Part shown: piece after piece, positions 5,204 through 49,659 of the stretch
How positions within the stretch are numbered: position 1 is the first letter of the stretch
Layout of the letters: every line of letters starts with the position of its first letter
Assembly (NCBI RefSeq): GCF_022965805.1
Contig: NC_133101.1
Location: forward strand, 19,811,054-19,875,053
Direction: 5' to 3'
Origin: Primulina eburnea
Taxonomy: Eukaryota > Streptophyta > Magnoliopsida > Lamiales > Gesneriaceae
Length of the DNA stretch: 64,000 nt
Program-made: the position numbers and the translations under genes
The notes under the pieces: model-generated
Database searches by the model: none
Told to the model about the DNA's origin: nothing
What the model saw: the letters and a program-made list of their open reading frames with translations, nothing else

Positions 5204-6700
5204 ATGGAGGAAGAACCCATCCAATAAAATGAAGATGAAATTCAATCTCAGCATGATCATGATAGACGAAGAACACTTAGAGATCACATGAATCCTACAC
5301 GTACTAGTGCACCTTCATGTCTAGTTTTTCCCCCTGATGCATCTCATTTCAATTTTAAGCCTGGTATTATCCAACTTTTACCCAACTTTAATGGTTTAGA
5401 TTCTGAAAATCCATACATGTATTTACGAGAGTTTGAAGAAGTGTGCAATACATATAATGAACTAAATGGTAGCATTAAAACCATTCGACTTAAGCTTTTT
5501 CTTTTTTCTTTAAAAGATAAAGCTAAAACTTGGCTACAAAATCTTAGATCATGATCCATTCGAACATGGGATGAATTGCAACAACAATTTTTGAAAAAGT
5601 TTTTTCCATCTCATAGAACAAATTCTTTCAAAAAGCAAATAATCACTTTCACTCAAAAACAAGGAGAAACTTTTTATCAGTGTTTGGATAGATATAAAGA
5701 ATTGCTTAATCTTTGTCCTCATCATGGTTTTGAAATTTGGAGAGTTGTTTCTCAATTTTATGAAGGCTTAACACCTAAATATAGGCAAATGGTTGAATTT
5801 ATGTGTAATGGAACATTTGAAGATAAAGATTCAAACGAGATAATTGAGTATCTCGATTCATTAGCTGAAAATGCTCAAAATTGGGACACAATAGGTACAA
5901 TTGAACCATCAAACAAAATTCAATCTCCCACATCTGGTGGAGGTATGTACACTCTCAAGGATGAACACGATCTCCAATCCAGATTTACCTCTTTGGCAAG
6001 AAAATTTGAGGCACTTGAATTGAAAAAGAATAGTCAATTAAAATCTGTTCAAGAAATTGAATTTCACATCTGTGATACAAGTGATCATTCTACAAAAGAT
6101 TATCCCACTTTGCCTTCTTTTGAAGAATGTCTCCATGAACAAGCCAATGTTTTAAACAATTTCAAAAGGCCAAATTTTGAACCATTTTCTCAAAGTTACA
6201 ATCCAGGTTGGCGAAATCATCCAAATTTTAGTTGGAGGAATGATAATGCTACACAATTTTCACAACCATATTTCCAAAATCAACAAAATTTTCAAAATTA
6301 TGCACCATATGTTCCTCCACCTAAAAGGAATTTGGAAGATATATTGAATTCTTTCATTGCAAAGCAAGAGTCTATCAATACTAAAACTGCTCAAACCATG
6401 ACAGATTTGAAAGATACTCTTGCTAAATTTGCATCTGCCCTTAATGTTCATGAAAAAGGTAAATTTTCTTCACAACCACAGCCTAATCTCAAAGATCATG
6501 ATTCACAAACAGGAACTTCTGGAACTCAACCGATGGATCAGGTAAAATCTGTTATTACCCTTCGCAGTGGTAAGGTTGTGGAAAAATCCATTCTTGAACC
6601 TTGTGAAGATGATGATCAATCAACTCCAAAGGGTAAGGAAGTGGAACCCATAATTTGCGAAGAGGAGGTTCAACAGACAGTGTCGCCACCATTCCCTCAT
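5204..6700 (+). pseudogene. Athila gag (broken)
   Basis: Capsid-like protein of an Athila element. A start codon at 5204 opens the frame, but an in-frame TAA follows at 5225-5227 and a TGA at 5552-5554; the reading frame is otherwise continuous. The Retrotrans_gag-type core (KPGIIQLLPNF, YLREFEEVC, LFLFSLKDKAKTWL, and after the second stop FFPSHRTNSFKKQI) is clear and aligns with the gag of Athila copy 2. Downstream is a linker with Asn/Gln-rich stretches. No zinc knuckle is evident. Non-functional as it stands. Confidence 0.8.
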
Positions 6701-6899
6701 GCATTAAAAAATACAAAAAAATCAAATTTGAATTCTGATATATATGATATTTTTAAACAAGTAAAAGTTAATATTCCTTTATTAGATGCAATAAAGCAGG
6801 TACCATCATATGCCAAATTTTTGAAAGACTTGTGCACTGTGAAAAGAAAATTGAATGTGAAAAAGAAAGCATTTTTAGCCAAACAAGTAAGTGCAATCA

Positions 6900-7420
6900 T
6901 TCAAAATAATAATACTTTGAAATACAAAGACCCTGGTTGTCCTACTATTTCATGTATTATTGGAGAACGAAAGATTAAAAAAGCCTTGTTTGATCTTGGA
7001 GCTAGTGTGAATTTACTTCCATATTCAGTTTATCAAGAACTCAATCTAGGCGAGATAAAACCTACTTCGATAACACTGTTACTTGCCGATAGATCTGTTA
7101 AAGTTCCAAGAGGTATGGTAGAAGAAGTTTTTGTCCAAGTTGATAATTGTGTATATTCTGTCGATTTCATAGTTTTAGATACAAAACCTATCGAAGCTTG
7201 TAATGCAATTCCTGTAATTTTGGTTCGTCCATTTTTAGCAACTTCTAATGCTCTAATAAATTGAAGGAATGGAATAATGAAGTTGTCATTTGGTAACATG
7301 ACCTTGGAGCTTAATGTGTTTAATCTTTGTAAGCAACCACATGACAAAGGAGATGAAAGTGAAGATGAAAATCTTGTTGAAACTCTTGTGGAAGAAAGCA
7401 TTCAAGAAGGGAGTACTCGT
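6900..7420 (+). pseudogene. Athila aspartic protease region (broken)
   Basis: Same frame as gag. The retroviral-type aspartic protease signature reads LFDLGASVNLLP (Asp codon at 6992-6994), with the downstream flap-like LADRSVKVPRG and a conserved PFLATSNALI. An in-frame TGA at 7262-7264 stops translation, after which homology continues in the same frame. The role in a live element is to cleave the gag-pol polyprotein. Confidence 0.8.
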
Positions 7421-7559
7421 GACCAATTAGATATTTGTTCAATTGATATTGTTAAAGAAAATATTGAAATTGATCTTGATGATTTTATCAGGTATCACTC
7501 GTTACCAGGATCAGAAAAAGAATTTGAGGCGAAATATGAGAACAAAGACGAACCACCCA

Positions 7560-9090
7560 TATTGGAGTTAAAACCCTTGCCAGAAGAATTGAAGTATGCA
7601 TTTCTTGGAAAATATGAAACATATCATGTGGTAATTTCTTCCAAACTATCAAGTAATCAAGAAGGTAAATTAGTTGATATGCTTAAAAGACATAAAAATG
7701 CAATTGGTTGGACACTAAAAGATCTTATGGGCATTAACCCACTAATTTGCACTTACAAAATTCACTTAGAAAAAAATGCTAAAACATCTCAACAACCACA
7801 AAGGAGATTAAATCCACACATGAAAGATGTTGTAAAAACTGAAGTTCTCAAACTACTTGAATTATCTACCCTATTTCTGATAGTAAGTAGGTAAGCTCAA
7901 CACAAGTAGTTCCAAAAAAATCTGGCATCACAGTGATAAAAAATGAAAAAGGTGAATTGTTAACAAGTCGAGTCCCATCTAGTTGGCGGATGTGTATTGA
8001 TTATAGAAAATTAAATGGTACCACTAGAAAAGATCATTTTCCATTACAATTTTTGGATCAAATTTTAGAAAGAATAGCAGGTCATTCCTACTACTGTTTT
8101 CTTGATGGATATTCAGGTTATTATCAAATTCCCATTGCACTCGAAGATCAAAAAAAAACTACATTTACATATCCTTTTGGAACATTTGCATCCAGAAGGA
8201 TGCCATATGGTTTATGCAATGCCCAAGAAACATTTCAAAGATGTATGCTAAGCATTTTTAGCAACATGGTTGAAAACTGTTTCGAGATTTTCATGGATGA
8301 TTTAACTGTTTTTGGGAGTACATTTGATAATTGTCTTGAAAATTTGGAAAAAATTTTAAAAAGATGTGAGGAAAAAGGTCTTATTTTAAATTGGGAAAAA
8401 TGTCAATACATGATTACTTCTGGGATTGTTTTGGGACATATTGTGTCATCTCATGTAATTGAAGTTGATAAAGCAAAAGTTGATGTCATTGCCAATTTAC
8501 CCCCTCCAAAAACCATTAAAGAAATTCGTTCATTTTTGGGACATGCTGGATTTTATAGGAGGTTTATAAAGGACTTTAGTTTAATCTCTAAGCCCATTTG
8601 TAACCTCTTAACAAAAGACACTGTATTTGAGTGGACTCAAGAATGCCAAAATGATTTTGATAAAATCATTCGACATTTAACATCAGCTCCTATCATGAAA
8701 CCTCCTGATTGTCTTTACCATTTGAAATAATGTGCGACGCGAGTGATTATGCTGTCGGTGCAGTATTTGGTCAAAGAAGAAACGGTAAGCCTTATGTGAT
8801 ATATTATGCTAGTAGAACTTTAAACAATGCTCAAATGAATTACTCCACAACTGAAAAAGAATTACTTGCTGTAATATTTGCATTAGATAAATTTCGTTCT
8901 TACTTGATTGGATCAACAACTATTGTGTTTACTGATCCTTCTGCTATTAGATATTTATTGACCAAACAGGATGCAAAGCCACGACTGATACGATGGATTT
9001 TGTTGCTCCAAGAATTTGACAATGTAATCAAAGATAAAAAAAGGAACCGAGAATGTCGTAGCTGATCATTTATCGAGACTAGCAACAGGA
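7560..9090 (+). pseudogene. Athila reverse transcriptase and RNase H (broken)
   Basis: RT homology covers the fingers and palm: [11 protein letters not shown] near 7985, [14 protein letters not shown] near 8100, the catalytic FMDD at 8290-8301, then the thumb and RNase H ([15 protein letters not shown] from about 8731, TTEKELLAV). The frame is disrupted near 7860 (a frameshift and a TAG in place of a Trp codon), near 8710 and near 9055. The catalytic aspartates are still encoded, but no single frame spans the domain. It converts element RNA to DNA in intact relatives. Confidence 0.85.
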
Positions 9091-9102
9091 TCATCTTGTG
9101 AA

Positions 9103-10441
9103 ATGGCACCAATTGATGATAATTATCCTGATGAACATCTATTTTCAGTTATTACTATATCTTGGTTTGCTAACATAGATAATTTTCTTGTGACAGGAAA
9201 AATGCCACCGCAATGGAGTTCCCAAGATAAAAGAAAATTTTTGAATGAGGTAAAAAACTTTTATTGGGATGATCCGTATCTATTCAAGTATTGTCCATAT
9301 CAAATTTTTAGACGTTGCATACCCGACAATGAAGTTAGTAGTGTCATTAAATTTTGTCATTCAGACGCATGTGGAGGACATTTTTCTTCAAAGAAAATGG
9401 CTGCAAAAATCTTGCAGTGTGGATTTTATTGGCTCATTTTGTTTAAAGACACCCACGAAATCTGCAAGATCTGTGAAAATTGTCAAAAATTGGGTGCGAT
9501 TTAAAAAAAACATGATGCCTTTGAATCCTATCATTGAAATTGAAATCTTTGACTGTTGGAGAATTGATTTTATGGTACCTTTTCTACTGTCGTTTGGATA
9601 CTTGTATATTTTAGTTGCAGTTGATTATGTTTCCAAATGGATAGAGGCAATTCCATGTCGAACAAATGATCATAAAATTGTAATCAAATTTTTGAAAGAA
9701 AATATTTTTAGTAGATTTGGAATTTTTTGAGTCATGATAAGTGATGGGTGAACTCACTTTGTTAATAAACCATTTGCTTCATTAATGAAAAAATATGGTA
9801 TTACTCACAAAGTAACTACTCCTTATCATCCTCAAACAAATGGACAGATTGAATTAGCTAATAGGGAGATAAAGCAAATTTTGGAAAAAAATGTTAACCC
9901 AAATAGAAAAGATTAGTATCTGCGACTTAATGATGAACTTTGGGCATATCGAACAGCTTTTAAAACATCATTGAATATGTCTCCCTATAGGTTGGTTTAC
10001 GGAAAACATTGTCATTTGCCTGTGGAATTGGAACATAAATCTTATTGGGCGATCAAAACTTTTAATTCAAGCATGGATGAGGCCAGAAAATTGCGTAAAT
10101 TGCAACTTAATGAACTTGATGAACTCAGAAATGACGCGTATGAGAATTCAAGGATTTATAAAGCAAAAATCAAATCATTTCATGATAAAACAATTCTTAG
10201 AAAATCATTTGAGATTGGTAAAAAAGTTTTGCTTTATAATTCTCGACTTCACATATTCTCAGGAAAATTACGATCAAGATGGACAGGCCCATATATTGTG
10301 AAACATGTGTGTCCTTATGGAGCTGTGGAAATCAAAAATCCTAAAAATGGTGATGTTTTTAAAGTAAATGGACAAAGGCTTAAACCATTTTTAGAAAATG
10401 AAATCTTTAAAGAAGAGTTTATTTCCCTTTCCGATCCTTGA
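9103..10441 (+). pseudogene. Athila integrase (broken)
   Basis: The N-terminal HHCC zinc-binding region ([29 protein letters not shown]) lies at 9370-9500, followed by a frame change near 9495. The catalytic core follows, with first Asp in RIDFMVPF, second Asp in MISDG and Glu in [13 protein letters not shown] codons at 9728 and 9748 and a TAG near 9914 break it. The C-terminal 156 codons (9971-10441) are open and end with a conserved [11 protein letters not shown] motif. This is the end of pol; the accessory ORFs follow. Confidence 0.85.
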
Positions 10442-10715
10442 TTTTTTGTGTTGAAATTAAATTTGTTTGTTTTTATTTCAGGTTTCCTTAATCTTTTTAT
10501 TTTCCTGGTTAAATGGCAGATAACGGTACTCCGTGGCTCTCATAGTCGGTTTAATCAATTTCCCACAATTGCTGATACAAACATTAAAAAAAAATCATTT
10601 CTTTTCTTTTCAAAATGGATGAAATTATCTCAAAATTTGTAAATATTTTCCCTCTGTTTCTGAAAATGTTCTAAGAAAAATTTATGCAGGAAGATGTGAA
10701 AGATTGAGATTGCTA
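10442..10715 (+). other. Leader between pol and accessory ORFs with acceptor-like sites
   Basis: About 270 bp of pyrimidine-rich sequence. Candidate 3' splice sites are TTTTTATTTCAG ending near 10482 and TTTATGCAG ending near 10689. These could feed a spliced subgenomic mRNA for the downstream ORF, as proposed for env-position ORFs of some plant retroelements; this is inference. Short frames starting at ATG 10513 and ATG 10615 run out quickly. Confidence 0.35.
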
Positions 10716-11024
10716 ATGCGAAAAGGAATTCTAGAAGATATTTGTCTTGTAATAGAAGCTAAGGTCCGATTAGGAGGAGAAATTCCACAGTCATTACTCA
10801 TTCCATATATGCCTGGATTAGGAAAAAGCACTTGTGCGAAAAAACGAAGGGCCAAAAGTTTAGGGGTTTGTCATAAGTGTGCAAGATGGACTTGTGACAA
10901 ACGATGCAGATCTTTGGGATGTGTTTCCAATAACAGAGAAGATAAAATTTATTTCATCAGGAATAGGCTAAGTAAGGAGTCTTTAGATAACATCTTATTG
11001 ACTCTTGAGACGCATTCTAGTTGA
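10716..11024 (+). CDS. Small basic C4 zinc-finger protein, NABP-like (accessory ORF A)
   Basis: 102 codons from the first ATG; the frame is open upstream to 10623 without another ATG. A lysine/arginine cluster (AKKRRAKSLG, residues 41-50) is followed at once by cysteines 52, 55, 60, 64 and 69, giving C-x2-C-x8-C-x4-C with one extra Cys. A basic patch directly before a C4 finger is the layout of the small cysteine-rich nucleic-acid-binding proteins of carlaviruses and relatives (Carla_C4 family), which act in RNA binding and silencing suppression. That resemblance is by eye and the spacing differs (x8 rather than about x12). It lies 275 bp after integrase and 348 bp before the LOG-like ORF. 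It could also be an unrelated zinc finger. A frameshift near 10650 may have cut off a longer N-terminus that starts at ATG 10615. Confidence 0.5.
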   Translation: MRKGILEDICLVIEAKVRLGGEIPQSLLIPYMPGLGKSTCAKKRRAKSLGVCHKCARWTCDKRCRSLGCVSNNREDKIYFIRNRLSKESLDNILLTLETHSS

Positions 11025-11372
11025 CACGTGCATATTGAACTTCTCCGTTTATGGAAACAATTTTAAGATGAGCGTCACCGTAATAGTCTTGGGAATCTGA
11101 CTAAAAAAGACCATGTTTGCCAATTTATAAGAAAATTGGATGGGAAGCATATCCTTGACTCATAGAAGGCGTTGAAGCCGTTTCTGGACGTAAAACCAGA
11201 GGAAAATTGTGAGCCACAATCACACTACTGTCTATATGCATGTGTGTCATTATTGTTTTACTGTTTATTCTGTTTACAGCTGTGACCCATTTTTTTGTCA
11301 TGATAACATATTAACCCTATAAAATCTCCCATCTTTCTCTCTATTTTCGCAGACCAAAAAGAAAATAAAAAC
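11025..11372 (+). other. Spacer before the LOG-like ORF with acceptor-like site
   Basis: 348 bp without a convincing ORF. Its end reads TTTCTCTCTATTTTCGCAG (up to about 11352), a good-looking 3' splice acceptor 20 bp before the LOG start codon. A matching donor was not identified. Confidence 0.35.
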
Positions 11373-12011
11373 ATGGCTGGATCTTCTACACAAACATTGA
11401 AAAATATTTGTGTATTTTGTGGGTCGAGTCTTGGTAAAAATGAAGTGTTTGTAGAAGCAGCAAATAAACTTGGAAAGATATTGGCTGAGAGAAAAATTCA
11501 CTTGGTATATGGGGGAGGTAATATTGGGTTAATGGGATCTGTTTCAACATCTGCACATCTTGGAGGTAGTCAGGTTTTCGGTATTATTCCTATAGCTTTA
11601 GCTGAAGGAAATATTACTGGTGCTACGATTGGGGAGGAATTAAAAATTTCTTCTATGTATGAAAGAATCACTAAAGTGATTGAAAATTCGGATGCTTTTA
11701 TCGCACTACCAGGTGGTTTTGGTACATTAGAGGAAATTTTTCATATTGTTTCTTGGGCACAACTTAATATCCATAATAAACCTGTGGGATTGTTGAATAT
11801 CAATAATTATTATGACAGTTTGTTGACATTTCTTGATAAAGCTGTGGAACAGAATTTCATTTCAGAAAATTCACGACGGATGCTCATCACTGCTTCGACT
11901 GCCGACCAATTTATTGATGATTTGGAAGCTTTTGTTCATAAGCCTGATCCGATGATAGCAAAGATCAATTGGTCGCAATCAAGCAGTAAGAAAAGAAAGT
12001 TGGATCATTGA
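11373..12011 (+). CDS. LOG-like: LOG-family cytokinin riboside 5'-monophosphate phosphoribohydrolase (accessory ORF B)
   Basis: 212 codons, uninterrupted. LOG enzymes hydrolyse cytokinin riboside monophosphates to the active free base plus ribose 5-phosphate. Family signatures in order: CVFCGSS (13-19), LVYGGGNIGLMG (44-55), an Arg equivalent to the catalytic one at 98 (MYERITK), the hallmark PGGFGTLEE (113-121), SWAQLNIHNKPVGLLN (127-142), YYDSLL and FLDKAVEQNFIS. Length matches plant LOGs (about 200-230). The start has A at -3 and G at +4. Plant LOG genes have several introns; this copy has none, as expected for a cDNA-derived gene carried by a retroelement. The C-terminus adds KKRKLD, resembling a nuclear localisation signal. 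It occupies the env-position slot of Athila copy 1, between pol and the 3' polypurine tract. Some family positions differ (I instead of K after the catalytic Arg), so activity is not assured. Confidence 0.88.
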   Translation: MAGSSTQTLKNICVFCGSSLGKNEVFVEAANKLGKILAERKIHLVYGGGNIGLMGSVSTSAHLGGSQVFGIIPIALAEGNITGATIGEELKISSMYERITKVIENSDAFIALPGGFGTLEEIFHIVSWAQLNIHNKPVGLLNINNYYDSLLTFLDKAVEQNFISENSRRMLITASTADQFIDDLEAFVHKPDPMIAKINWSQSSSKKRKLDH

Positions 12012-12121
12012 TTGAAAAGTCGTGGATTGGTTTGCGTTTTTTCAGTTTGTTATCTTCAATAAAATTTCAGGTGATATCTCTTTCATTATGTACTCTTTAT
12101 TAATAGTTATTTTGACATTAG

Positions 12122-12155
12122 GGACAATGTCATATTCTGATTGGGGGGAGAAAAA
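12122..12155 (+). promoter_or_regulatory. Internal polypurine-like motif
   Basis: GGACAATG, then ATTC, then TTGGGGGGAGAAAAAA. The same ordered motif occurs in Athila copy 2 at 46577-46614. It may be a second plus-strand primer (a central polypurine tract analogue) or a cleavage/polyadenylation-related element. Function is inferred only from conservation between two otherwise divergent copies. Confidence 0.5.
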
Positions 12156-12168
12156 ATTAAAAAAAAAT

Positions 12169-12173
<5 letters not shown>

Positions 12174-12216
<43 letters not shown>
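12174..12216. repeat. (TA)n microsatellite
   Basis: About 21 uninterrupted TA dinucleotides in the 3' untranslated region of Athila copy 1. Confidence 0.95.
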
Positions 12217-12220
<4 letters not shown>

Positions 12221-13277
12221 ATAATAAAATCATGTTTATTGCTTGTATCTTTGTAATTTTTGCAAAAATATCATACATTACATATTTGAAAGATTTAAAT
12301 TAAAAAATTTATTAATCTATCTAAGGATGTTTAATTATTATTTGGAAAAAAAGTCAATTTTTATATTCTGATCACTATAAAAATATGAATTATGAAATCT
12401 TTTTGAGTGATTAACCATTGTGATAAGATCAGTTATTAAGGTATATTGCCCAAGATATACCTTATAAGAGTGCCTAAAATTTTAAACTCACACATATTTT
12501 GTGAGTGAGTGGAGAGGATTGAGAAAACAGCTTTCGAGCCTTTACTGATCATAAGAGAGGCTATCTATTGCTTAGATCTTGAGTTCTTATTTTTTTTTAA
12601 AAAAAAACAAAAAATTGATATTTATTGAAAAAAAGAGAAAAAAAGAAGATAAATGTTGACGATTTATGTAATTTCAAAGTTATATGCTACGACCCATTTA
12701 TCTCTCATAAAAAAAAGAGAAAGAAAGAAAAAAAATAGAAAGAGAGAAATATATTTTACAAATTAAATAAATATGTGGTCAATGAGCATAAACTTTGTCT
12801 TATTCTATGATGTTATGAAAGAAAAGAAAAAAAATCTCAAAAGAAGATCAGGAAAAAAATATATATATAATAAGAATAACTAGATTTTGAATCATTGGAT
12901 TTCTTATCTTTTGATTAATCTGGCTCGTTTGTCTGTCTGCATTCTGTAAACCATTTTCCTAAGCATTTATATGTATTCCAACTCCATGAGAGAAACTGTC
13001 CCTCTAAATTGAAACATTTATGAACCTGTGAGGATATGAAGTTAAGACTCTTACTAGGAATTTCTGAAGGCCATGTACATTTAACTACCTGAAAATAAGC
13101 TTTGAATTGATCAGATCATTTTTATTTCATAAATTATCATTATGATGATCTTGATATAACTTTGACATTTTTCAAATTTAATTTAAACACTTGGATAGTT
13201 CCGATTACATTTCCATTTAAATTAATCAATATGTTTTGTATTGCTATTAACGCTTAAATTGCTAGGGACTAGCAATA

Positions 13278-13292
13278 AGTTGGTTGGGGGTG
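13278..13292 (+). other. 3' polypurine tract of Athila 1
   Basis: AGTTGGTTGGGGGTG directly precedes the LTR start TGATAAAC. It is preceded by GGGACTAGCAA, which also precedes the tract of Athila copy 2 near 48170. Confidence 0.7.
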
Positions 13293-13851
13293 TGATAAAC
13301 ATAAAAATTGTACATTAATTAAATGTTTTATAATATAAATTTATATTTTTTGTTTTATTAAATGTTTAAATATTATATGTTTTATAATAAATTGTATAAA
13401 AAAATAAGTTGTTGTGTAATTATAAGTTTTTACTATTTTTACAGGTTAGATAAAACAAGAATAACCTTGCCGTTGCAAATGGTATTAAGATGATTTTTTG
13501 ACCTGTAGAAAGTTGATGATAATATCTACAATATTGGTGACAAACATGAGATAAAAATCTTCTCACATTTCGGATTAAATTAAGCAACAAATAAAGTTAT
13601 CGAAGGAATGACAGTTTTACCATGCTCTAGTATTTTGACCATATCTCTCAAATTACTAGGTCAAATGGGAAAAAAATACCACAATTCAGACAACTCAATT
13701 ATCCACATGTTTTATTTTATGTGAAGAAGCAAATTCGGAGAAGAAGATTTTCAAAAGTGATGTGCAATATAATATAATATCTTGGAACACCAATGAAGAC
13801 TTATGTGTAAAAAAATAATATTTTATTTGTGGTTGTCTCCCCAAATTTGGC

Positions 13852-13860
13852 TATAAATAG
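13852..13860 (+). promoter_or_regulatory. TATA box in Athila 1 LTR
   Basis: TATAAATAG, the only strong TATA element in this LTR. In the 5' LTR the same site would drive the genomic RNA. Confidence 0.55.
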
Positions 13861-14204
13861 GGGTGCATTGTATGTAATGTATTGAGATATCCCTCATTCT
13901 ATGAACAAACCTTTGAGTTCATAATATTTCTCTCTATATTTTTTCTTTATTTCTTCATTTAAATACAATTAGCATGTTAATTTCATATTAAAAGTTTTAC
14001 ACTTTGAATAATGAATAGCTAACTTCCTAAAGTTGAGATGATAAGGTGAAACTCTTGGCATGATAATAAGGTTATTAAAAGGTAAGAATCTATGTTTTAT
14101 ATTATTTAATCATTATTTATTGTTTATGTTATATTTATTTCTTTAAGCATTTTTATACCCTACTTATAAGTGGGAGTTTTGATTTATTTTTGCTATATGT
14201 TACA

Positions 14205-14480: not shown

Positions 14481-14845
14481 AATAAATACTTGACCACATT
14501 TATAAGTTTTGGTATATATTATATACTTATAAGATAATAATATATAACATAATATAAATATGATTATTTAATATATTGGAACCATTTATGTAAGTGGATT
14601 TCAATATTGTTCGTTAATGTTAACTTTATTAAAATACCAAGAGTGGATCCTTTAATCTCAACTACTTAAATTAAAATTTGAACAATTAAAAATTAAAAAT
14701 TAAAGATTCAAACAACTAAAAAAAAAGATATTGTAGTGGACTTGTTATTACCTTAGCTTCCTCGTAGATACGATATTCGGACTCATCGAATTATACTACT
14801 TGTGAACAACCTACTCTTGGGAGTGCAAAAATCAAAGTCGCAACA

Positions 14846-37623: not shown

Positions 37624-37628
37624 GTAGT
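37624..37628. repeat. Target-site duplication of Athila 2 (left)
   Basis: GTAGT, identical to 49660-49664. On the host strand it is ACTAC within the Tyr-Tyr codons of the RNase H tether. Confidence 0.95.
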
Positions 37629-37806
37629 TGATAAGTGCAAGTTTTGCACTTAATTTACATTAGAATCCATTATGAATTATGCGTGTTTCGAACAGGATTA
37701 TGCGTTTTTTTGGTTTGTTTTTGTTGTCATCTCAGGAATGAAGGAAACAGAAGGCACGAAGCCAAGTCACCAAGAAAACAAGGGTCATTTCCATTACCTT
37801 GGACAG

Positions 37807-38120
37807 CAGCTACCGCGCGACCGCGCGACATCTCGCGCTGCCGCGCGCGCACATCACGCAAGGCGTCTACCCGAGGATCCCGCGCGCCCGCGCCAATTCT
37901 CGCGCACCCGCGCGCCCAAGTGCCATGTTGAAGACCCGAGACCAACGCGCGATAGCTCCAAGTATCGCACTGCCGTGCGCAGCGAGACGAGCTGGAAACC
38001 GAGACAAGCACGCGCCCGCGCCACTTCTTGCGCTGCTGCGCGCACACATGCATGGCAAGAAGAGCAGGAGCTTGCGCGCCCTAGCGCCACTTGTCGCGCT
38101 GCCGCGCGCGCCGCGACCCA
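37807..38120. repeat. CGCG-rich palindromic stretch in Athila 2 LTR
   Basis: Repeated short self-complementary blocks (CGCGCG, TCGCGC, GCGCGCCCGCGC) immediately upstream of the TATA box; repeated at 48380-48693 in the 3' LTR, and a similar array at 44690-44990 inside the element. Confidence 0.8.
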
Positions 38121-38126
38121 GAAAAC

Positions 38127-38133
38127 TATAAAT
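38127..38133 (+). promoter_or_regulatory. TATA box of Athila 2
   Basis: TATAAAT about 500 bp into the 5' LTR, directly after the CpG-rich array; the likely core promoter for the genomic RNA. The 3' LTR copy is at 48700-48706. Confidence 0.6.
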
Positions 38134-39091
38134 TGCGCGAGTTAGGTCATAGATTATTATTGAGCCGCCGTGGAGAGCCGTCATTGGAGAAAGACACGCG
38201 AAACAGAGCGCATACACGGGATAGAGATTCAGAGTGCGAAGAACCATCGCAAATACGAAGAACGACGGATCTGGGAACAGAGACGACGCTTCGAATTTGT
38301 TATCTTTCCCTTTGTCTCTTTATTTTATTGCGTGCCGATGTCTAGAATCACAAACATGTCTTGTTTTCTCTTGGATTTTGTGATGAACTAAATTTCATTC
38401 TAGAGAATGACGTAACTCTGTTGATACGATGATTTGACACCGTTATTTATTGGTTTGAATTCCGCTTTCGTTTAATTGTGTTCTCTGCGTTTACTGCACT
38501 GCAATTTACTGGCCATAAATTGTTTGTGGTTTGATTAATCTTATAACTCGGGAGAGGGACTAGGATTATAGATCATTAGAGACACATCGTTGAATGTTTA
38601 TAGCGTTCGGAAGGCGTATAACTTTAGCGAGGCTTAGTAAGAACATTGCATGCACTTATCTATGAACGTAGATTCTAATTAGGAATAATTGAATTGGAGT
38701 TGATAGATACACTTTATTCGTCACTTGGGAAAGGGGGAATAAAACAATCTAAGTGTTCTTGGCCCTTAATCGACTGGAATTCAGGTATATAAATCAAACT
38801 GTGAATAATTATCGTGGAAACTTTGTGAAACCATTTCTCTAGATACTTTCTCTCATTATCATCTCTCGATTCGGTGACTTAATTTATTCTTTGCTTTCAA
38901 TTAATTCGTTTAAACAAACAAAACTGAGTATTGATTTTTCTAAATAAAGTTGAGGCTATTTTAATTACAAGAATTGATATACATTCTTTTACACACTCCT
39001 CGTGGGATCGATACTTGTACTCAAAAGTACATTTTACTATAACTTGACATCGTGCGCTTGCGAGCATTTAAGAAAACGCGTAACAAGTTTT

Positions 39092-39109
39092 TGGCGCCGT
39101 TGCCGGGGA
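39092..39109 (+). other. Primer-binding site, tRNA-Asp
   Basis: TGGCGCCGTTGCCGGGGA is complementary over 18 bases to the 3' end of plant tRNA-Asp. It lies 6 bp after the LTR. This primer is typical of the Athila lineage. Confidence 0.92.
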
Positions 39110-39219
39110 GTGTCAAATTTGAATTTATATCAGTATTGTTACCAATTAGTCTAGATTTTAATTTAGATATTTTATTCTATTTCCTTTTTGATTTATTGAT
39201 TTTCTCTGTTTGACAGTGC

Positions 39220-42200
39220 ATGCTAAGATCGCACAGCCCTGAATTGCTTGTTTTTGATCCGGAGATCGAGCGAACTGCAAGAAGATTAAGAAAAGCGGGA
39301 AGGGAAGAGATCAAAGCGATGGCCGATAACAGAGAAAACGACCGACAGATGCCACCTGAGGCAATACCAATCAGAGATCACTTCCGACCAGTGATCAACA
39401 CGCACTATTCTGGCATTGCAAGAGGGACAATCAACGCCAATAATTTCGAATTGAAGCCCGCTCTAATCAATATGGTTCAGCAAAACCAGTTTGCCGGAAC
39501 AGCCACATCTGATCCTCATGTTCACCTGAGGACCTTTTTGGAGATCACGGATACGGTAAAGATTAATAATGTTCCTGATGATGTTATTAGACTGCGTTTG
39601 TTTCCGTTCTCTCTCAGGGATCAAGCACGAGGATGGCTCCAATCGCTTCCCTTGGGAAGCATCACGACATGGCACGAGCTGGTGACGAAATTTCTGGCAA
39701 AGTACTTTCCCCCTGCAAAGTCTGCGCAGTTGAAGATTGAGATTAGCACTTTCAGGCAGACTGATTTTGAACAACTGTATGAGGCATGGGAGAGATACAA
39801 GGAGTTGTTGAGAAAGTGCCCAAATCATGGATTCGAAGACTGGGTGCAGATTGAGTTATTCTACAACGGTCTGAATGGGCAAACAAGAGGAACAGTGGAT
39901 GCTGCAGCTGGTGGCACGATCTTTGCGAAATCCCCCGAGCAAGCATATGACTTGCTTGAACAGATGACGATAAATAGCTATCAGTGGCCATCTGAAAGGT
40001 CTGGAGTGAAGAGGACAGCTGGAGTTTATGCTGTGGATCCCATTACATCACTCACTGCACAGGTGTCAGCACTGACCACGCAACTCGCAGCTATGAACAA
40101 AGTGAGCATACCAGAAACTGAGAATCCACCGACTGTTGCTGAAGAACAATCTATTCCTGAAGAAGCCCAGTACATCAACAACAGAAATTTTGGAGGATTT
40201 GGAGGATATAGAGGTAACCCTCCCCCTAACACTTATCATCCTGGATTAAGAAATCACGAAAACTTTTCTTATGCAAACAATAAAAATGTGTTGAATCCTC
40301 CACCGGGGTTCAATACATCAAAGGGGGAGGGAAAGCCTTCATTGGAAGATTTGGTAGGAACATTTGTTACTGAGTCTGGAAAAAGGATGGCGAGAACCGA
40401 ATCTCGTCTGGACAACATGGAGACTCATATGGGAAATATGGGGGCCACAATGAAATCTCTGGAGACACAAATCGGACAGTTGGCCAACGCCTTGAGAGAT
40501 CAGAACAGGGGTCAATTTCCTAGTAACACGGAAGTTAACCCAAAAGAACAGTGCAAGGCAGTCACTTTGAGGAGTGGGAAGGAATTAGAGGTACAGAATC
40601 CCAAAGAGAGAGTGGACAGTGGGAAGACAGTTGAAGAAGGTGAAATGGAGAAATCCACGGCTGAAATCAAAGTTGAACCACCTCCAGTGTATAAGCCGAC
40701 TCTACCCTACCCTCAGAGATTCAAGAAGAAGAGCTTGGATGATCAGTTTGCAAAGTTCTTGGAAATTTTCAAGAAGATACACATCAACATACCATTTGCT
40801 GATGCTTTGGAGCAAATGCCGAACTATGCCAAGTTTATTAAAGATGTGATGTCTAAAAAGAGGAAGTTGCAAGAGTTTGAGACAGTGAAGCTTACTGAGG
40901 AGTGTAGTGCCATCTTGCAAAAGAAATTACCACAAAAATTGAAAGATCCAGGGAGTTTTACTATTCCTTGTTTTATTGGTGGTTCTCATTGTAGTAAAGC
41001 TTTATGTGATTTAGGAGCAAGTATTAATTTGATGCCCTTTTCTATTTTCAGGAAATTGGAGCTTGGAGAAGTTAAACCAACTACTATCACCCTACAGCTT
41101 GCAGACAGAAGTCTCACATATCCACGTGGGGTCGTCGAGGATGTACTGGTAAAAGTAGATAAATTTATTTTTCCTATTGATTTTGTGATTTTAGATATGG
41201 AAGAGGATCATGATGCTCCATTGATCTCTGGGAGACCATTCTTGGCGACTGGAAGGGCATTGATCGATGTTCATAAGGGTGAACTCACCTTGAGAGTTGG
41301 TGGTGAAGAAGTTATTTTTAACATCTATCACGCCATGAAGGGATCCAATGAGGTAAGCACTTGTAAAAGCATTAATGTTATAGACTCATGTATGTCTCTT
41401 GATTGTGCAGGAATGAGAGATCCCTTGGAGAGCTGTCTGATAGGTACGGCAGGAACTGTCGATGAAGATAATTGGGAAGTGAAAGAGCAATTAGTGGCTC
41501 TTGACGCGCTGCCAAAAGAAAAGAGAAAAGATGCACCGCATGATGAGCTGAATGTGAATGAGAAACTAGAGGTAAAACCACCTTCCCCTGATTTGAAGGA
41601 GTTGCCAAGCCACCTGTGCTATGCATTTTTAGGTGAGAAGTCGACGTATCCGGTAATTATCTCTTCTTCCCTTTCCTGTGATGAAAAAGATAAATTATTG
41701 AGAGTGCTGCGAAAGTATAAAACTGCTTTAGGATGGTCGATATCTGATATTAGGGGAATTAGCCCCACTATATGCATGCATAAAATTTTGATGGAGGAGG
41801 CGTATACTCCTTATGTGGATCACCAGAGGAGGTTGAACCCAGCAATGAAAGAGGTTGTGAAGAATGAGGTACTGAAATTGTTAAATACTGGTGTAATTTA
41901 TGCTATTTCTGACAGTAGCTGGGTATCTCCTGTGCAAGTTGTACCAAAAAAGGGTGGGATGACAGTGGTCAAAAATGAAAATGATGAGTTAATATCTACT
42001 CGTACTGTAACTGGTTGGCGAGTATGTATTGACTATAGAAAGTTGAACAATGCCACACGAAAAGATCATTTTCCATTGCCTTTTATTGATCAGATGCTTG
42101 ATAGACTTGCAGGTTATTGTCACTACTGTTTCTTAGATGGGTATTCAGGTTATAATCAAATTGCCATAGCACCAGAAGATCAGGAGAAGACAACATTCAC

Positions 42201-44469
42201 ATGCCCCTATGGCACGTTTGCCTTTAGAAGGATGCCTTTTGGACTATGTAATGCACCTGCTACTTTTCAGAGGTGTATGATGGCCATTTTTGTAGACATG
42301 GTGGAGGACATCATGGAAGTCTTCATGGATGACTTCTCGGTATTTGGCTCTTCTTTTGATCACTGTTTACATAACCTATCCCTTGTTTTGCAGAGATGCC
42401 AAGAAAAGAACCTAGTTCTTAACTGGGAGAAGTGTCACTTTATGGTCCAAGATGGCATTGTTCTTGGACATAAAGTATCTTCTAAGGGATTAGAGGTTGA
42501 CAGAGCCAAGGTGGTTGCAATTGAAAAACTCCCTCCGCCAAAGAACATCAAGGGAATAAGGAGCTTCTTAGGGCATGCCGGGTTTTATCGTAGATTTATC
42601 AAAGATTTTTCTAAGATTACTAAACCTCTGTGTAATTTGCTTGAAAAAGAATCCACCTTTATTTTTGATGATGATTGTCTGCAGGCATTTGAGAAGATCA
42701 AGAAAGCATTGGTGACTGCACCAATCATGATAGTGCCGGATTGGGAGCAACCCTTTGAGCTGATGTGCGATGCCAGTGATTATGCAGTGGGTGTGGTGTT
42801 GGGACAGAAACGTGATAAATTCTTCAGATCAATCTACTATGCAAGTCGTACCATGGATGCTGCACAGCAAAACTACACAACCACCGAAAAGGAGATGCTC
42901 GCAGTAGTATTCGCCTTTGACAAGTTCAGACCCTACTTGGTAGGTACAAAGGTAATAGTTTTCACTGATCATGCAGCTATCCGTTACTTATTTGCCAAGA
43001 AGGATGCAAAGCCACGCTTGATAAGGTGGATCTTGTTGCTCCAAGAGTTTGATTTTGAGGTAAGGGATAGAAAGGGATGTGAAAATCAAGTGGCTGACCA
43101 CCTGTCAAGACTTGAGCGAGAGGAGAAGGAAGAAGAGGGAGCTATACAAGAAACTTTTCCAGATGAGCAGCTCTTTGAGGTAAACTCTGTACTTCCTTGG
43201 TTTGCTGATATTGCTAATTATTTGTCTTGTGGAACCCTTCCCCCAGATATGAGCTACCATCAGAAAAAGAAGTTCGTCCATGATATAAAGTTCTTCTATT
43301 GGGACGATCCGTTCGTGTATAAGAGGTGTGCTGACCAAGTGATTAGGAGGTGCGTAGAAGATATCGAAGCGCAACAAATTCTGGAGAAATGCCATTCTTC
43401 ACCATATGGTGGACATTTCGGAGCATCACGAACAGCAGCTAAGGTATTACAATCTGGTTTTTACTGGCCTAGTTTGTTTAAGGATAGTTATACCTTAGTG
43501 AAATCATGTGATAGATGCCAAAGGTTAGGAAACATCTCTAGGCGTCACGAATTACCACTGACAAATGTTTTGGAAGTGGAACTTTTTGACGTTTGGGGCA
43601 TAGATTTCATGGGACCTTTTCCCCCTTCCTCTGGCTATTCTTACATTCTGTTAGCTGTTGATTATGTTTCAAAATGGGTGGAAGCAATCGCCACCAGTAC
43701 TAATGACTCTCATGTTGTAGCGAAATTCGTACAGAAAAACATTTTCACCAGGTTTGGAACACCGAGGGCCATCATAAGTGATGAAGGTACACATTTTTGC
43801 AATAGAATTTTCAACTCACTATTGGCCAAATACAATGTGAAGCACAAGGTGGCACTAGCATATCATCCGCAGTCAAATGGACAAGCTGAAGTATCCAACC
43901 GGGAAATTAAGCAGATACTGGAAAAGACTGTCAACACAAACCGGAGGGATTGGGCATTGAAGTTGGATGATGCGCTATGGGCTTACAGAACTGCATTCAA
44001 GATGCCTATTGGGATGTCTCCCTACCGGCTAGTATTTGGAAAAGCATGCCACCTACCATTGGAGTTGGAGCATAGGGCATTTTGGGCCGTGAAGAAGTTG
44101 AATTTTGATCTGAAAGCGTCTGGCGAAGTTAGAAAGCTGCAATTGAGCGAGATGGACGAATTTCGAAATGACGCCTATGAGAATGCAAAGATCTACAAAG
44201 AACAGACCAAGAAGTGGCATGACAAGATCTTAGTTCGAAGGGAGCTAAAACCAGGACAACAGGTACTGTTGTACAACTCTCGTCTGAAGTTGTTCCCTGG
44301 TAAGTTAAAGTCACGATGGTCAGGACCATTTGTCTTGGAAACGGTATCGCCCTATGGAGCTGTCGAGCTAAAGTGCAATGATGGAAGAACCTTCAAAGTG
44401 AATGGACAGCGGGTTAAACCCTACTTTGGAACTGAAGTAAGAAATATCGACAGTTACAAGTTGATCTGA
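39220..44469 (+). CDS. Athila gag-pol polyprotein (complete)
   Basis: 1749 codons, no internal stop. Gag core of the Retrotrans_gag type spans about residues 70-240 ([30 protein letters not shown]). The protease signature [12 protein letters not shown] has its Asp at 597. RT has [25 protein letters not shown] and catalytic FMDD at 1035-1038. RNase H begins [10 protein letters not shown] (Asp 1184). The integrase HHCC module ([13 protein letters not shown] ... CDRCQRLG) precedes the D,D-35-E core with Asp 1462, Asp 1521 and Glu 1557. The C-terminus ends [13 protein letters not shown]. No chromodomain, as expected for Athila. The start 39220 is 110 bp after the primer site; Met-34 (39319) is a possible alternative. 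All catalytic residues are present, so it could act for itself and for gutted elements. Confidence 0.95.
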
Positions 44470-45389
44470 TCAGACAGGGTACCGTCGGGCTGATGACGTT
44501 AAACCAAGCGCTGTGTGGGAGGCAACCCACATTTATTTATTTTTTGCATTCGTTCTGCTTCATTATTTTAATTAAATTTCTTAGTAATATTTTAATTTCC
44601 GTTATTTAAGTATTAATTAGAATCTTTTTATTTTTTTTTTTTTTGCAGATTATGTTAAAAAAAAAAAAATGGATTTACAGACGTATGCGCGCCCAGGCGC
44701 GACATCTCGCGCGGCAGCGTGCTAAGGACCACTTGGATTTATAGAAGCTAGCGCCCCAGCGCCATGTCTCAAGCGATCGCGCACACAGCAACCTTGCACG
44801 AAGACAGTAGGTCACGCGCGATAGCGCGACCTCTCGCGCGCTCGCGCGTGCCTTTTTATCACCGATTTACAGAAGCTATCGCGCCGTAGCTCGACATCTC
44901 GCGCGATCGCGCGCCCTCGATTATTGCTGACAGACCCGAGGACAACGCGCGATAGCGCGACATTTCGCGCGCCAGCGCGACGCGTCGACCTCACCACTTT
45001 AAATACCCCTCCTCACGATTTCTACCCTAATTTCTTCTCTCCCTCACCACTCAGCCGCCTCCCCCTCAAGATTTCCCTCTCCAAAACTCCTCTCCTCCAC
45101 AAAAGAAAATCCTTAAACTCCTCAAATCATCCCCACCACCGTCTCCACCAAACACTCACCCAACAACACCACCCAACCATCGTCGCCGTCTTCCACCACA
45201 CACGCCGCCGCCGCTAGCAGAGCCGCCGCCTCCTCTCTCCCCTGCCGCCAGTGTCATCTTCTATTCTTGGCTCAAGGGTATCACTTCCCTTACCTTATTA
45301 TTATTTTGGCTTAATCTGAGAAATAAATCTTTGTGGTTGAATTTTGCTCCGTATTTGTTGCTTATTATCGGGGATAGTGTTGATTATTT
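44470..45389 (+). other. Region between pol and ORF2 with second CGCG array
   Basis: 920 bp. 44690-44990 carries CGCGCGATAGCGCG-type palindromic blocks resembling the LTR U3 array. They are followed by a TATA-like TTTAAATACC (44998-45007) and then a CT-rich leader into ORF2. No ORF with homology. The arrangement could form an internal promoter for ORF2. Confidence 0.6.
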
Positions 45390-46526
45390 ATGGCGCCTAG
45401 AAAGAAATCCAAGGATGGTGCTTCCTCGTCTCGTTCCTACGATGCTCACAAATTTTGGAACGAGGAAGCCTCTCGGGTATATGACAACACCGTGTCTCGA
45501 TCTCTCATCCCTGAACGAGGGCTTGATATGACCCACCTTGATTGTGATATAATTACGGAAGTTGTGCGACGTGGATGGGTCGATATAGCACAATCTCCGT
45601 CAGACGCCGTTTTACCCGTAGTCCGTGAATTTTATGCAAATTTGAGAATCAAACATGAGGAATACGGAGTATTGGTGCGTGGGCAACTCGTCTACTTTGA
45701 TTCGGCCACCATTAATGCCATCTACCATCTGCCGGATTTTGATAATGACGGGTACACAGAGTTCATCACTGGAGATGTGGACTACGAGCGGATTATAACG
45801 ACTTTATGTATTGAGGGTGCAGAGTGGAGACTGAATCAGGGCTCCCCGGTTACACTGAAGAGATCTGATCTACGTAGTGACCCACGCCACTAGGCATCAT
45901 TTATTCTCTCACGGATTACGCCCTCCTCCCATCAGACTGAAATTACAAAAGACAAAGTGGCGTTGATTTACGCCATCATGACTGGGCGAACCGTTGATCT
46001 TGGGAAGCTCATTCACAGCTACATCATGCGTGCTGGCACGGGACTCATGACGGTCAGCCTCCCTTGTGCACACACTATCACCGCCTTATGTCTTTATGCC
46101 GGTGTGAGATGGGGAGATGATGAACAGATCTTGAAAGCCAAGAGCCCTATCATAGTATTTGAGGTCAATCGTTCACGCTTTGGATCCGAAATAGAACGAC
46201 AAGCGGAAAGAGCACAATACAACCAGAGGGCCAGAGCACGCAATCCGCCACCACCATCACGCCCGCGATCAAGTTTGGGAGATCGCATGTTCCGATTGGA
46301 ACAGGATATGCGGGTCGAACGCCATGAGCAGGCTGCACATCGACACAGAACTGATGCTTTTATGACACATATGATGGATTTCACGTCGGTTTTCACCCAG
46401 CGCTTTCCACCGACTAGACCCGAGGATGCACCTTGGCCACCACCTCCAGCTTGGCCACCACAGTACGCACCACAAGATGATGATGATGAAGGATCGGGGG
46501 ATGATGACTCGAGCCCCGAGTTCTGA
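45390..46526 (+). pseudogene. Athila env-position ORF2, single amber stop
   Basis: One reading frame of 379 codons including the terminator, broken once by TAG at 45891-45893, after which homology-like sequence continues in frame (ASFILSRITPSSH, then MALIYAIMTGRTVDLG). The N-terminal part begins MAPRKKSKDGASSS and resembles the putative plant transposon protein family found at this place in Athila elements (I believe PF20167). The C-terminal part is Pro-rich (PPPPAWPP) with an acidic end (DDDDEGSGDDD). No signal peptide or membrane span is evident, so it does not look like a real envelope protein. The stop is either a recent lesion or a readthrough site. Confidence 0.65.
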
Positions 46527-48186
46527 CACTCGGGTGCGAGGTATGTGTTGTCATGTTATTTATTTCCATACATTGAGGACAATGCATAATTCAAGTTTGG
46601 GGGGGTCAAAAAAAAAAAAATTGCTGGTTAGAATTTTTCTGAATTCTTTTCATTTTGCGCAGTAGTTAAGTTTTCATTTGTTTCTTTAGATTTTATTTCT
46701 GCATGCTAGTTTTGTTAGGAAAAGTCATGGATAAGTAAAATGTGTGGCCGATGATGAAAATTGAATTGTGGTCCTTAATTATATATGTGTTCACGAGAAC
46801 CTAGGAGTCACAAATATTTTGCACTGTCGTGTTTATCGATACTATTGTTGCTTAGAGACAAGTTGTATGCTTGTGATGCTAAACAGACGACAGATATCTG
46901 ATTTTTGGTAATTCGTGCATGACATGGACTGACACTTTCACAAACATAGAAATGATCTAGGCAGTCTTTCACAATATTTTTGGGCCTGTTTTCTTTGTTA
47001 CTGTCAATTGTAGCCCTTTGAGCCTTGAAGTTTTTGAGATGCTTAAATTTTCTTCGTGCACCTATATTCATCTATCATTTTATTGAAAATTGCATGTGAC
47101 GGGTTTATATGAGTTGACTAATGGATTGACGGAAGTCTAGAACTTGGTTGAACACTTTTCGAGGCGAAATACGGATAATATGTGACATAGGAATGATTTA
47201 GGCGATCTTTGAAACCGTTGAGCCTTCGAGCCTACCAACTGAACATGAAATATCCCTAGTGTCCCATTTTGAGTCTACTGAAAAATTCAAGTGGTGTATG
47301 TCAATGACATACAATTAGCCCCCACTTGTATCTATTCTACATCCCACAACAACTACCTAATGAAGCCTATACACTGAATTTCCTACCTGTTTTTGAGAGA
47401 AATAAATTCATTGGTGTTGTAATGATTCAAAGGCTCCTTGAAAAACAAAAAAAAAAAAAATTTGAAGTGTGCAAAGAGGGAGTTGAAAATAGACAAAAAG
47501 AAGGAGAAAAAGTTCAATCAAAGAAAAGAATGAATCAAAAGTGGTGAAAAAGAAAATTGGGAAATGAAGGATGTGAATGAAAAAAGAATGAAAATGAGTG
47601 AATTTGACAAAGATTCGATCATTTCTCTCAAATGTTGAATCCCATACCTTTTATTGTAGCCGTGAGCCGTGGCCTAACGTTACAAGCCTACAAGACCTAT
47701 TAACCTGGTCACATTTATCCAATATACTAGTGGAGAAAAGTTGTTCAATTCAAGCCTATGGATTACTGAAAAAACATTGTCATCGAGTATAGACTTTAAT
47801 CACTTGCTTGCGAGCATCTCGTTGTGTGATTTCAACTTTGGTATAATTTCGTTGAATATTCATTGAGCCAACTAATCACCGATAAAGACCTTTGTGATCT
47901 ATGAATGTGAATTTGGATTTTAATGAAGTGTGAGTTGAACTAAGCTGATGATTTCTCGATTCTGTAAGGCGAATGGGCATATTTACTCTATCTGAGCATT
48001 CGATGGGGTAAACGAACATGGACATATCACACACACACGTGACTCTTGGGGAACCGTGAATTACATTAAAAAGAAAAAAAATCTGAGGCCAATATCACTT
48101 CTTACGAACCCGTGACTGTTAGAGTTTCATTATTTAGTAATTGACTTCTTGTTTTTATTTTATTTTGCTCGGGACTAGCAAAAGTT
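46527..48186 (+). other. Athila 2 3' untranslated region
   Basis: 1.66 kb of non-coding sequence between ORF2 and the polypurine tract, with an internal polypurine-like motif near its start and several A-rich runs. I see no gene. Confidence 0.7.
46577..46614 (+). promoter_or_regulatory. Internal polypurine-like motif of Athila 2
   Basis: GGACAATG, ATTC, then AGTTTGGGGGGGTC and an A run. It parallels the motif at 12122-12155 in Athila 1 and lies about 1.6 kb before the 3' LTR. Confidence 0.5.
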
Positions 48187-48201
48187 CAAGTTTGGGGGGT
48201 T
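48187..48201 (+). other. 3' polypurine tract of Athila 2
   Basis: CAAGTTTGGGGGGTT touches the LTR start TGATAAG; the preceding GGGACTAGCAA is shared with Athila 1. Confidence 0.85.
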
Positions 48202-49659
48202 TGATAAGTGCAAGTTTTGCACTTAATTTACATTAGAATCCATTATGAATTATGCGTGTTTCGAACAGTATTATGCGTTTTTTTGGTTTGTTTTTGTTGT
48301 CATCTCAGGAATGAAGGAAACAGAAGGCACGAAGCCAAGTCACCAAGAAAACAAGAGTCATTTCCATTACCTTGGACAGCAGCTACCGCGCGACCGCGCG
48401 ACATCTCGCGCTGCCGCGCGCGCACATCACGCAAGGCGTCTACCCGAGGATCCCGCGCGCCCGCGCCAATTCTCGCGCACCCGCGCGCCCAATTGCCATG
48501 TTGAAGAATTGAGACCAACGCGCGATAGCTCCAAGTATCGCGCTGCCGTGCGCAGCGAGACGAGCTGGAAACCGAGACAAGCACGCGCCCGCGCCACTTC
48601 TTGCGCTGCTGCGCGCACACATGCATGGCAAGAAGAGCAGGAGCTTGCGCGCCCTAGCGCCACTTGTCGCGCTGCCGCGCGCGCCGCGACCCAGAAAACT
48701 ATAAATTGCGCGAGTTAGGTCATAGATTATTATTGAGCCGCCGTGGAGAGCCGTCATTGGAGAAAGACACGCGAAACAGAGCGCATACACGGGATAGAGA
48801 TTCAGAGTGCGAAGAACCATCGCAAATACGAAGAACGACGGATCTGGGAACAGAGACGACGCTTCGAATTTGTTATCTTTCCCTTTGTCTCTTTATTTTA
48901 TTGCGTGCCGATGTCTAGAATCACAAACATGTCTTGTTTTCTCTTGGATTTTGTGATGAACTAAATTTCCATTCTAGAGAATGACGTAACTCTGTTGATA
49001 CGATGATTTGACACCGTTATTTATTGGTTTGAATTCCGCTTTCGTTTAATTGTGTTCTCTGCATTTACTGCACTGCAATTTACTGGCCATAAATTGTTTG
49101 TGGTTTGATTAATCTTATAACTCGGGAGAGGGACTAGGATTATAGATCATTAGAGACACATCGTTGAATGTTTATAGCGTTCGGAAGGCGTATAACTTTA
49201 GCGAGGCTTAGTAAGAACATTGCATGCACTTATCTATGAACGTAGATTCTAATTAGGAATAATTGAATTGGAGTTGATAGATACACTTTATTCGTCACTT
49301 GGGAAAGGGGGAATAAAACAATCTAAGTGTTCTTGGCCCTTAATCGACTGGAATTCAGGTATATAAATCAAACTGTGAATAATTATCGTGGAAACTTTGT
49401 GAAACCATTTCTCTAGATACTTTCTCTCATTATCATCTCTCGATTCGGTGACTTAATTTATTCTTTGCTTTCAATTAATTCGTTTAAACAAACAAAACTG
49501 AGTATTGATTTTTCTAAATAAAGTTGAGGCTATTTTAATTACAAGAATTGATATACATTCTTTTACACACTCCTCGTGGGATCGATACTTGTACTCAAAA
49601 GTACATTTTACTATAACTTGACATCGTGCGCTTGCGAGCATTTAAGAAAACGCGTAACA
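48202..49659 (+). mobile_element. 3' LTR of Athila 2 (1458 bp)
   Basis: Matches the 5' LTR throughout. Differences seen: one near the start (AACAGT versus AACAGG), one in AACAAGAGTC, a cluster of four in CAATTGCC / GAAGAATTG, one in TATCGCG, an extra C near 48969, and one in CTGCATTT. Confidence 0.92.

Follow-up and report, generated by a model that had tools for sequence, protein, structure and literature searches.

The 64-kb stretch of DNA analyzed here (the window) contains a LOG-family gene, and its surroundings support a location inside an Athila-like element, in the ORF2 (env-like) position and on the sense strand. On balance, we lean toward the reading that this element is a dead copy that carries a cassette of a carlavirus CRP-like ORF and a LOG with an altered pocket, which would be expressed through splicing and would serve functions in favor of the element.

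Position of the LOG gene in Athila-like copy 1

The features on which the placement is based are the following:
5276..10405, + strand: decayed gag-pol of Athila-like copy 1, located by tblastn with the copy-2 polyprotein; gag and RT domains
11373..12011, + strand: intact LOG-fold ORF of 212 codons, with profile, sequence and model matches
12123..12148, + strand: internal polypurine-like motif, common to copy 2 (46578-46603)
37628..49659, + strand: copy 2, used for comparison; LTRs at 37628-39085 and 48201-49659, 99.4% identical
39220-44469, + strand: open gag-pol of copy 2, an open polyprotein
45390-46526, + strand: ORF2 of copy 2 (PF20167), between pol and the shared internal motif

The copy-1 gag-pol aligns by tblastn with the copy-2 polyprotein (39220-44469) in five HSPs of 34-69% identity. 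The motif GACAATG...TTGGGGGG, sought with at most two mismatches, occurs window-wide only at 12123-12148 and 46578-46603, with 0 occurrences expected in shuffles. The LOG ORF lies on the pol strand between the copy-1 pol and this motif, and the interval that it occupies is the one that holds ORF2 in copy 2. The preliminary description had placed it between the end of pol and the internal motif, at the site of the copy-2 ORF2, and the tblastn and motif searches bear this out. The assignment of copy 1 to the Athila lineage is based on a gag-pol related to the copy-2 polyprotein and on the motif shared after the ORF, both of which were found. Copy 2 itself we take to be an Athila element because of its layout, the PF20167 match of its ORF2 and general background on the lineage, rather than by comparison with a reference library.

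The layout first proposed for copy 1 holds with regard to position and strand, but not in full: no LTR pair of copy 1 was found within the 64-kb window, and another Ty3/gypsy pol starts at ~14.77 kb, 3' of the LOG. A search for an LTR start in 12001-14900 with five copy-2-like patterns matched only the internal motif, and the copy-2 LTR had no match in the same interval. The segments 1-1745 and 3422-5167 were considered as copy-1 LTRs and rejected, as they have no full partner 3' of the LOG and their relatives lie at 56-64 kb. These segments form a 1,745-bp repeat within 1-5167 (spacing ~3,422 bp, 96% identical) that abuts the 5' end of the copy-1 gag; its relatives in 56123-64000 are partial, with 79-88% identity, and the repeat is not LTR-like for copy 1.

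Several further observations concern copy 2 and the remainder of the window. The ORF2 of this young, otherwise open copy consists of two open frames, both matching PF20167, the second below the cut-off. Copy 2 seems to be inserted in another Ty3/gypsy element, with flanks at 35939-37628 and 49661-50093 that match one continuous stretch, 14845-16994, in reverse, like an empty site. After its pol, G+C-rich repeats of the CGCG type (44687-45004) display 57-68% identity to the LTR stretch 37802-38133. A tandem array occupies 22283-30885; its unit of ~1,794 bp is present in ~4.8 copies of 99.8% identity and contains sub-repeats of 111 bp. An Rfam search at gathering scores found nothing within the 64-kb window.

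Over its 5,130 bp, the copy-1 gag-pol carries 9 or 10 lesions, made up of four frame changes and five or six in-frame stops; stops inside overlapping HSP ends are left out of this count, one stop is located just 6 nt beyond the end of an HSP, and there are 8 stops in total. Between 1.1 and 1.2 lesions are expected in the 639 bp of the LOG ORF, with a probability of none of 0.33 to 0.29. These values agree with the approximately ten gag-pol lesions and the single lesion in 639 bp estimated beforehand, and with the view that the intact LOG frame is suggestive only. For the LOG ORF and the cysteine-rich ORF described below taken together (948 bp), the probability of both staying open, had selection been absent since insertion, is 0.16 to 0.19. 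Because of this chance, the openness of the two ORFs alone is no proof of function.

Fold and identity of the LOG ORF

The translation of 11373-12011, from MAGSST to KKRKLDH and the stop, is an intronless, stop-free frame of 212 codons that includes the motifs CVFCGSS, GGGNIGLMG and PGGFGTLEE, as well as Arg98. The PGGxGTxxE signature and the catalytic residues Arg98 and Glu121 are all present. In profile searches the ORF scores 172.3 bits against TIGR00730 (cut-off 96.35) and 127 bits against PF03641 (cut-off 27). The score against NF058542, the NCBIfam equivalog for cytokinin riboside 5'-monophosphate phosphoribohydrolase, is 114.5 bits and is below its cut-off of 300; this model is intended for naming proteins of bacteria and archaea, and its cut-off may be of limited use for plant LOGs. 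By sequence, Arabidopsis LOG3 (PDB code 2a33, E 1.1e-61) is the closest protein of solved structure. The predicted structure, computed from an alignment of 33 sequences, has a pLDDT of 85.8, and its top PDB match is again 2a33 (E 1.2e-24, rmsd 1.0-1.5). Judged by its sequence and predicted structure, the protein is a LOG-fold member of the type I LOG family. The intact, intron-free LOG ORF of 212 codons reported earlier, with its motifs, is thereby confirmed by translation, TIGR00730, PF03641 and 2a33. One further feature is located at the C-terminus:
11988..11999, + strand: KKRK, residues 206-209 of the LOG ORF, read from the sequence
KKRK resembles the pattern of nuclear-localization signals and may serve as such a tail.

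Divergence and constraint of the LOG ORF

The LOG ORF was compared with the best 80 of 134 bacterial relatives (36-47% identity), of which 79 had a usable ORF and one was dropped. Because the bacterial loci were chosen by exact 8-residue patterns, columns 10-17, common to all 79, are invariant by selection of the loci; we report the counts both with these columns and with them left out. Thirty-three columns, the same in the two Arabidopsis LOGs and in 90% or more of the 79 bacterial relatives, were taken as the core. The LOG ORF keeps 31/33 of these core columns and 45/96 of the other columns in which LOG3 and LOG8 agree; without columns 10-17 the counts are 25/27 and 45/95 (Fisher p 1.5e-5). 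When the core is set at 80%, 36 of 40 columns are kept, and E80N and T127S add to the losses. Among the 79 bacterial relatives, 14 lack between two and four of the 33 core columns; a double loss is thus not unusual in itself, but one that hits K99 and E124 is.

The protein is identical to LOG3 at 96/195 positions (~49%) and to LOG8 at 83/181, compared with 129/181 (71%) between LOG3 and LOG8. A tree of 53 of the 79 bacterial relatives and the two Arabidopsis LOGs groups the LOG ORF with the latter (support 100/99) on an end branch of 0.73 changes per column. Neither a pairing with LOG3 alone nor one with only LOG8 could be rejected (p-AU 0.115 and 0.221), which leaves the branching point, and hence the date of capture, unfixed. 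Strong divergence with nearly the whole core kept implies that selection acted on the protein during most of this divergence. From this pattern, seen in the one copy examined within the window, we infer purifying selection on the LOG for most of the time since it separated from the Arabidopsis LOG3/LOG8 line. Part of the constraint may date from a phase as a host gene before capture.

The adenine and prenyl pocket

Of the 33 core columns, just two are lost, through K99I and E124H; H96Y is a further change nearby. Mapped through the AtLOG3 alignment, the three positions correspond to Lys100, Glu125 and His97 of CgLOG. The CgLOG study places Lys100 in the adenine site and counts His97, Lys100 and Glu125 among five residues that line, in CgLOG, AtLOG3, OsLOG and CpLOG alike, the prenyl pocket proposed for the dimer interface (PMC4979012). 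In this set of Met, His, Lys, Glu and Trp, the LOG ORF keeps Met95 and Trp128 and has Tyr96, Ile99 and His124 at the changed positions. Lys at position 99 is found in 78/79 bacterial relatives and in both Arabidopsis LOGs, as is Glu at position 124, and the core losses of the bacterial relatives fall nearly always outside these two columns. Were two core losses placed at random, the chance of both hitting the three core columns of the pocket would be 0.006 to 0.009, in a test that was framed post hoc.

The LOG ORF thus looks like an N-glycosidase whose base specificity has changed, as far as can be read from its residues. The altered pocket (K99I, E124H and H96Y) makes the production of active cytokinin doubtful. 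An ordinary cytokinin-activating enzyme, as the preliminary description had assumed, is not supported, since three of the five proposed prenyl-pocket residues are changed while Arg98 and Glu121 are kept.

The cysteine-rich ORF preceding the LOG

A second ORF, which the preliminary description does not mention, lies between the copy-1 pol and the LOG:
10716..11024, + strand: cysteine-rich ORF, carlavirus CRP-like, 102 codons, with KKRR and C-x2-C-x8-C-x4-C

The encoded protein is small and basic (11.6 kDa, pI 9.6, both computed with one extra leading residue), and KKRR lies six residues before the C-x2-C-x8-C-x4-C finger. Read from its ATG, it matches Carla_C4 (PF01623) with an E-value of 5.6e-6 and 26.7 bits, above the cut-off of 20.9, which is also passed when the reading starts one codon before the ATG. 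The match to Viral_NABP (PF05515) is below the cut-off (E 2.1e-4, 21.8 bits against 23). In a stop-to-stop reading of 133 residues both scores are just under their cut-offs (Carla_C4 19.9 against 20.9 bits, Viral_NABP 21.2 against 23). None of nine shuffles of this reading, four of them with the cysteines fixed, matched Carla_C4 or Viral_NABP; one gave an unrelated match with an E-value of 0.12. The Carla_C4 match covers 37 of the 102 residues, and the first 32 residues match neither viral model. The structure model, computed without an alignment, is not informative (pLDDT 45.9). From an ATG at 10615, a stretch in another frame runs up to the ORF, and the true N-terminus in intact relatives may therefore be longer.

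Passages on carlavirus CRPs describe a CX2CX12CX4C finger and RRRR or KKRR in 2/3 viruses (PMC9559581), or a C-X2-C-X9-C-X4-C finger (PMC3689765). Several of these proteins are reported to be silencing suppressors, and the chrysanthemum virus B p12 is described as a transcription factor that causes hyperplasia (PMC12172455, PMC3689765). This p12 was unable to suppress silencing according to work cited by PMC3689765, and is weak in this respect according to PMC12172455. Among the titles and opening abstract lines listed from the open-licence literature, none describes a carlavirus-like protein in LTR elements, which is weak evidence of absence; PMC9289625 makes no mention of carlaviruses or nucleic acid binding, and has no word that begins with 'flexivir'.

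Splice-acceptor-like sites

Two sites stand out among the 469 AGs in 5276-14800, which were scored with a simple frequency matrix:
11323..11352, + strand: splice-acceptor-like site that ends 20 nt before the LOG ATG; best of 469 AGs
10452..10481, + strand: splice-acceptor-like site just after pol, with exon start at 10482; second best of 469 AGs

The acceptor-like site nearest to the cysteine-rich ORF (10689) ranks tenth. In copy 2, the best such site is at 44648, 179 nt after the end of the pol ORF. The ranks are only a pointer, because the matrix is simple and T-rich DNA favors the score. Splicing of the env-like ORF is reported for barley Bagy2 in a passage of PMC7264820. The top-ranked site, 20 nt before the LOG ATG, suggests a spliced expression of the env-like type, as far as a motif score can indicate it.

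Origin of the LOG ORF

Position and strand uphold the capture of a LOG by an Athila-like element that had been proposed for this copy. The abstract of Steinbauerova et al. 2011 is said to describe two Athila-like elements with similarity to LOGL4. A LOG (YgdH) domain is recorded in Ty3/gypsy consensuses of Citrus sinensis, C. clementina and unfiltered Populus trichocarpa in PMC9289625, which cites Steinbauerova et al. 2011 for LOG domains in such elements. With these domains already in print, the LOG capture is not new, and copy 1 is not a first.

Pattern searches of IMG/VR returned 5 stretches for the LOG, 13 for the cysteine-rich ORF and 10 for the copy-1 RT, 0 of which were confirmed. A search with a LOG alignment confirmed 15 of 58 matches, distant viral loci with 22-41% identity, and viruses or prophages thus also seem to carry the fold. 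The closest viral fold to the LOG ORF is a cyanophage LOG-family protein with 21% identity, and matches this distant provide no hint of a viral source for the LOG.

Alternative explanations

The function of the LOG can be read in other ways. It may still be a working cytokinin activator that tolerates the pocket changes, the element gaining through local cytokinin and cell division. Retention of Arg98, Glu121, the whole PGGxGTxxE signature, Met95 and Trp128 is consistent with such an enzyme, and wheat LOGs with the same known residues form differing products (PMC11593424), which means that residues predict activity imperfectly. We nevertheless consider a cytokinin activator unlikely, as the K99 and E124 positions are near-invariant in the bacterial relatives (78/79 each) and in both Arabidopsis LOGs, and as alanine changes of AMP-binding and catalytic residues nearly abolished the activity of CgLOG, Ser19 excepted; Lys100 is named there as adenine-binding, in text passages rather than in the per-mutant figure (PMC4979012). 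The same text states that Glu125 and Trp129 of each LOG active site are supplied by the partner subunit, which is the ground for a further reading, in which a LOG-like subunit that is not itself a useful enzyme pairs with a host LOG and alters or poisons it. The changed residues are at the dimer-interface pocket (PMC4979012) and the fold core is kept, as this reading would have it; the catalytic Arg and Glu are kept too, although poisoning does not need them, and we regard it as quite improbable.

The two-gene cassette could also be illusory in one of its parts. The cysteine-rich ORF may be open merely by chance, or be a scrap of some unrelated zinc finger, which would leave the LOG as the sole real cargo; this is doubtful in our judgment, yet carries an appreciable minority chance. 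The shortness of the Carla_C4 match, the 133-residue reading just under both cut-offs and the low pLDDT (45.9) of the AlphaFold model computed without an alignment all speak for it, but the Carla_C4 cut-off is passed from the ATG or from one codon earlier, two related models hit the same stretch, and 0/9 shuffles match. The LOG, in turn, might be a processed retrocopy of a host LOG, inserted once and by chance into a dead Athila copy, a case for which the preliminary description had proposed a check for a target duplication and poly(A) of its own. The search revealed no A-run of at least 8 within 150 nt past the LOG stop, and the two direct repeats of at least 11 nt in 10440-12160 each have a copy inside the LOG, neither of them flanking it. 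These results favor capture, as do the pol strand and ORF2 position, expected for an accessory ORF, the 96/195 identity to AtLOG3 on a long branch, and the recurrence of LOG domains in other Ty3/gypsy consensuses noted in PMC9289625. On the side of a retrocopy are the absence of a LOG from copy 2, the intronless ORF and an AATAAA that starts 47 nt past the LOG stop; we consider it very improbable.

Proposed model and its significance

The model that we favor is that of a captured cassette. Copy 1 would be a dead member of an Athila-like lineage in which an accessory cassette replaces the usual ORF2 (env-like) region, with a small basic cysteine-rich protein, probably nucleic-acid-binding, followed by a LOG-fold nucleotide N-glycosidase. 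Both ORFs would be translated from spliced env-like RNAs, one of them by way of the acceptor 20 nt before the LOG ATG. With its base pocket changed, the LOG would hydrolyze another nucleotide, or cytokinin nucleotides poorly, rather than act as a standard activator. By analogy with the carlavirus CRPs, the CRP would bind nucleic acid in the nucleus and counter silencing or shift transcription for the element. The most specific version, a lineage whose env position holds a two-gene cassette for host manipulation that pairs a flexivirus-type CRP suppressor or activator with a re-tuned LOG N-glycosidase, both from spliced RNAs, is put forward only tentatively and with low confidence.

RNA silencing keeps plant retrotransposons in check, and few of them are known to carry a countermeasure. 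If the cysteine-rich ORF works as its relatives in carlaviruses do, Athila-like elements would possess an RNA-virus-type silencing suppressor or transcription activator. Should the two-gene cassette be real, the retroelement would have the equipment of an RNA virus, and a mobile element would be using a new nucleotide-hydrolyzing activity. What copy 1 adds to the known LOG capture is the altered enzyme pocket, the virus-like neighboring ORF and the acceptor-like site. The LOG would be a naturally altered enzyme, whose pocket changes point to where a new substrate is to be sought.

Comparison with known systems

The LOG ORF shares with the type I LOGs AtLOG3, AtLOG8 and CgLOG the fold, the PGGxGTxxE signature, the catalytic Arg and Glu, and Trp128. 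It differs from them in the pocket, where His, Lys and Glu are replaced by Tyr, Ile and His, and in the basic KKRK tail. The ORF at 10716-11024 resembles the carlavirus CRPs (PF01623, and the related PF05515) in being small and basic, with KKRR before a C-x2-C...C-x4-C finger. By contrast, eight residues separate the halves of its finger, compared with 9 or 12 in theirs, its score is below the PF05515 cut-off, and it is located in a retroelement and not in an RNA virus. The Ty3/gypsy elements of Citrus and Populus carry a LOG-family domain, as does copy 1; the part of PMC9289625 that describes them does not give pocket residues, a cysteine-rich neighbor or splice sites. The same part of that source reports AlkB in Ty3/gypsy elements of orchids, an accessory domain of a type also reported in Alpha- and Betaflexiviridae and likewise carried as cargo, which differs from copy 1 in the protein carried and in the host plants.
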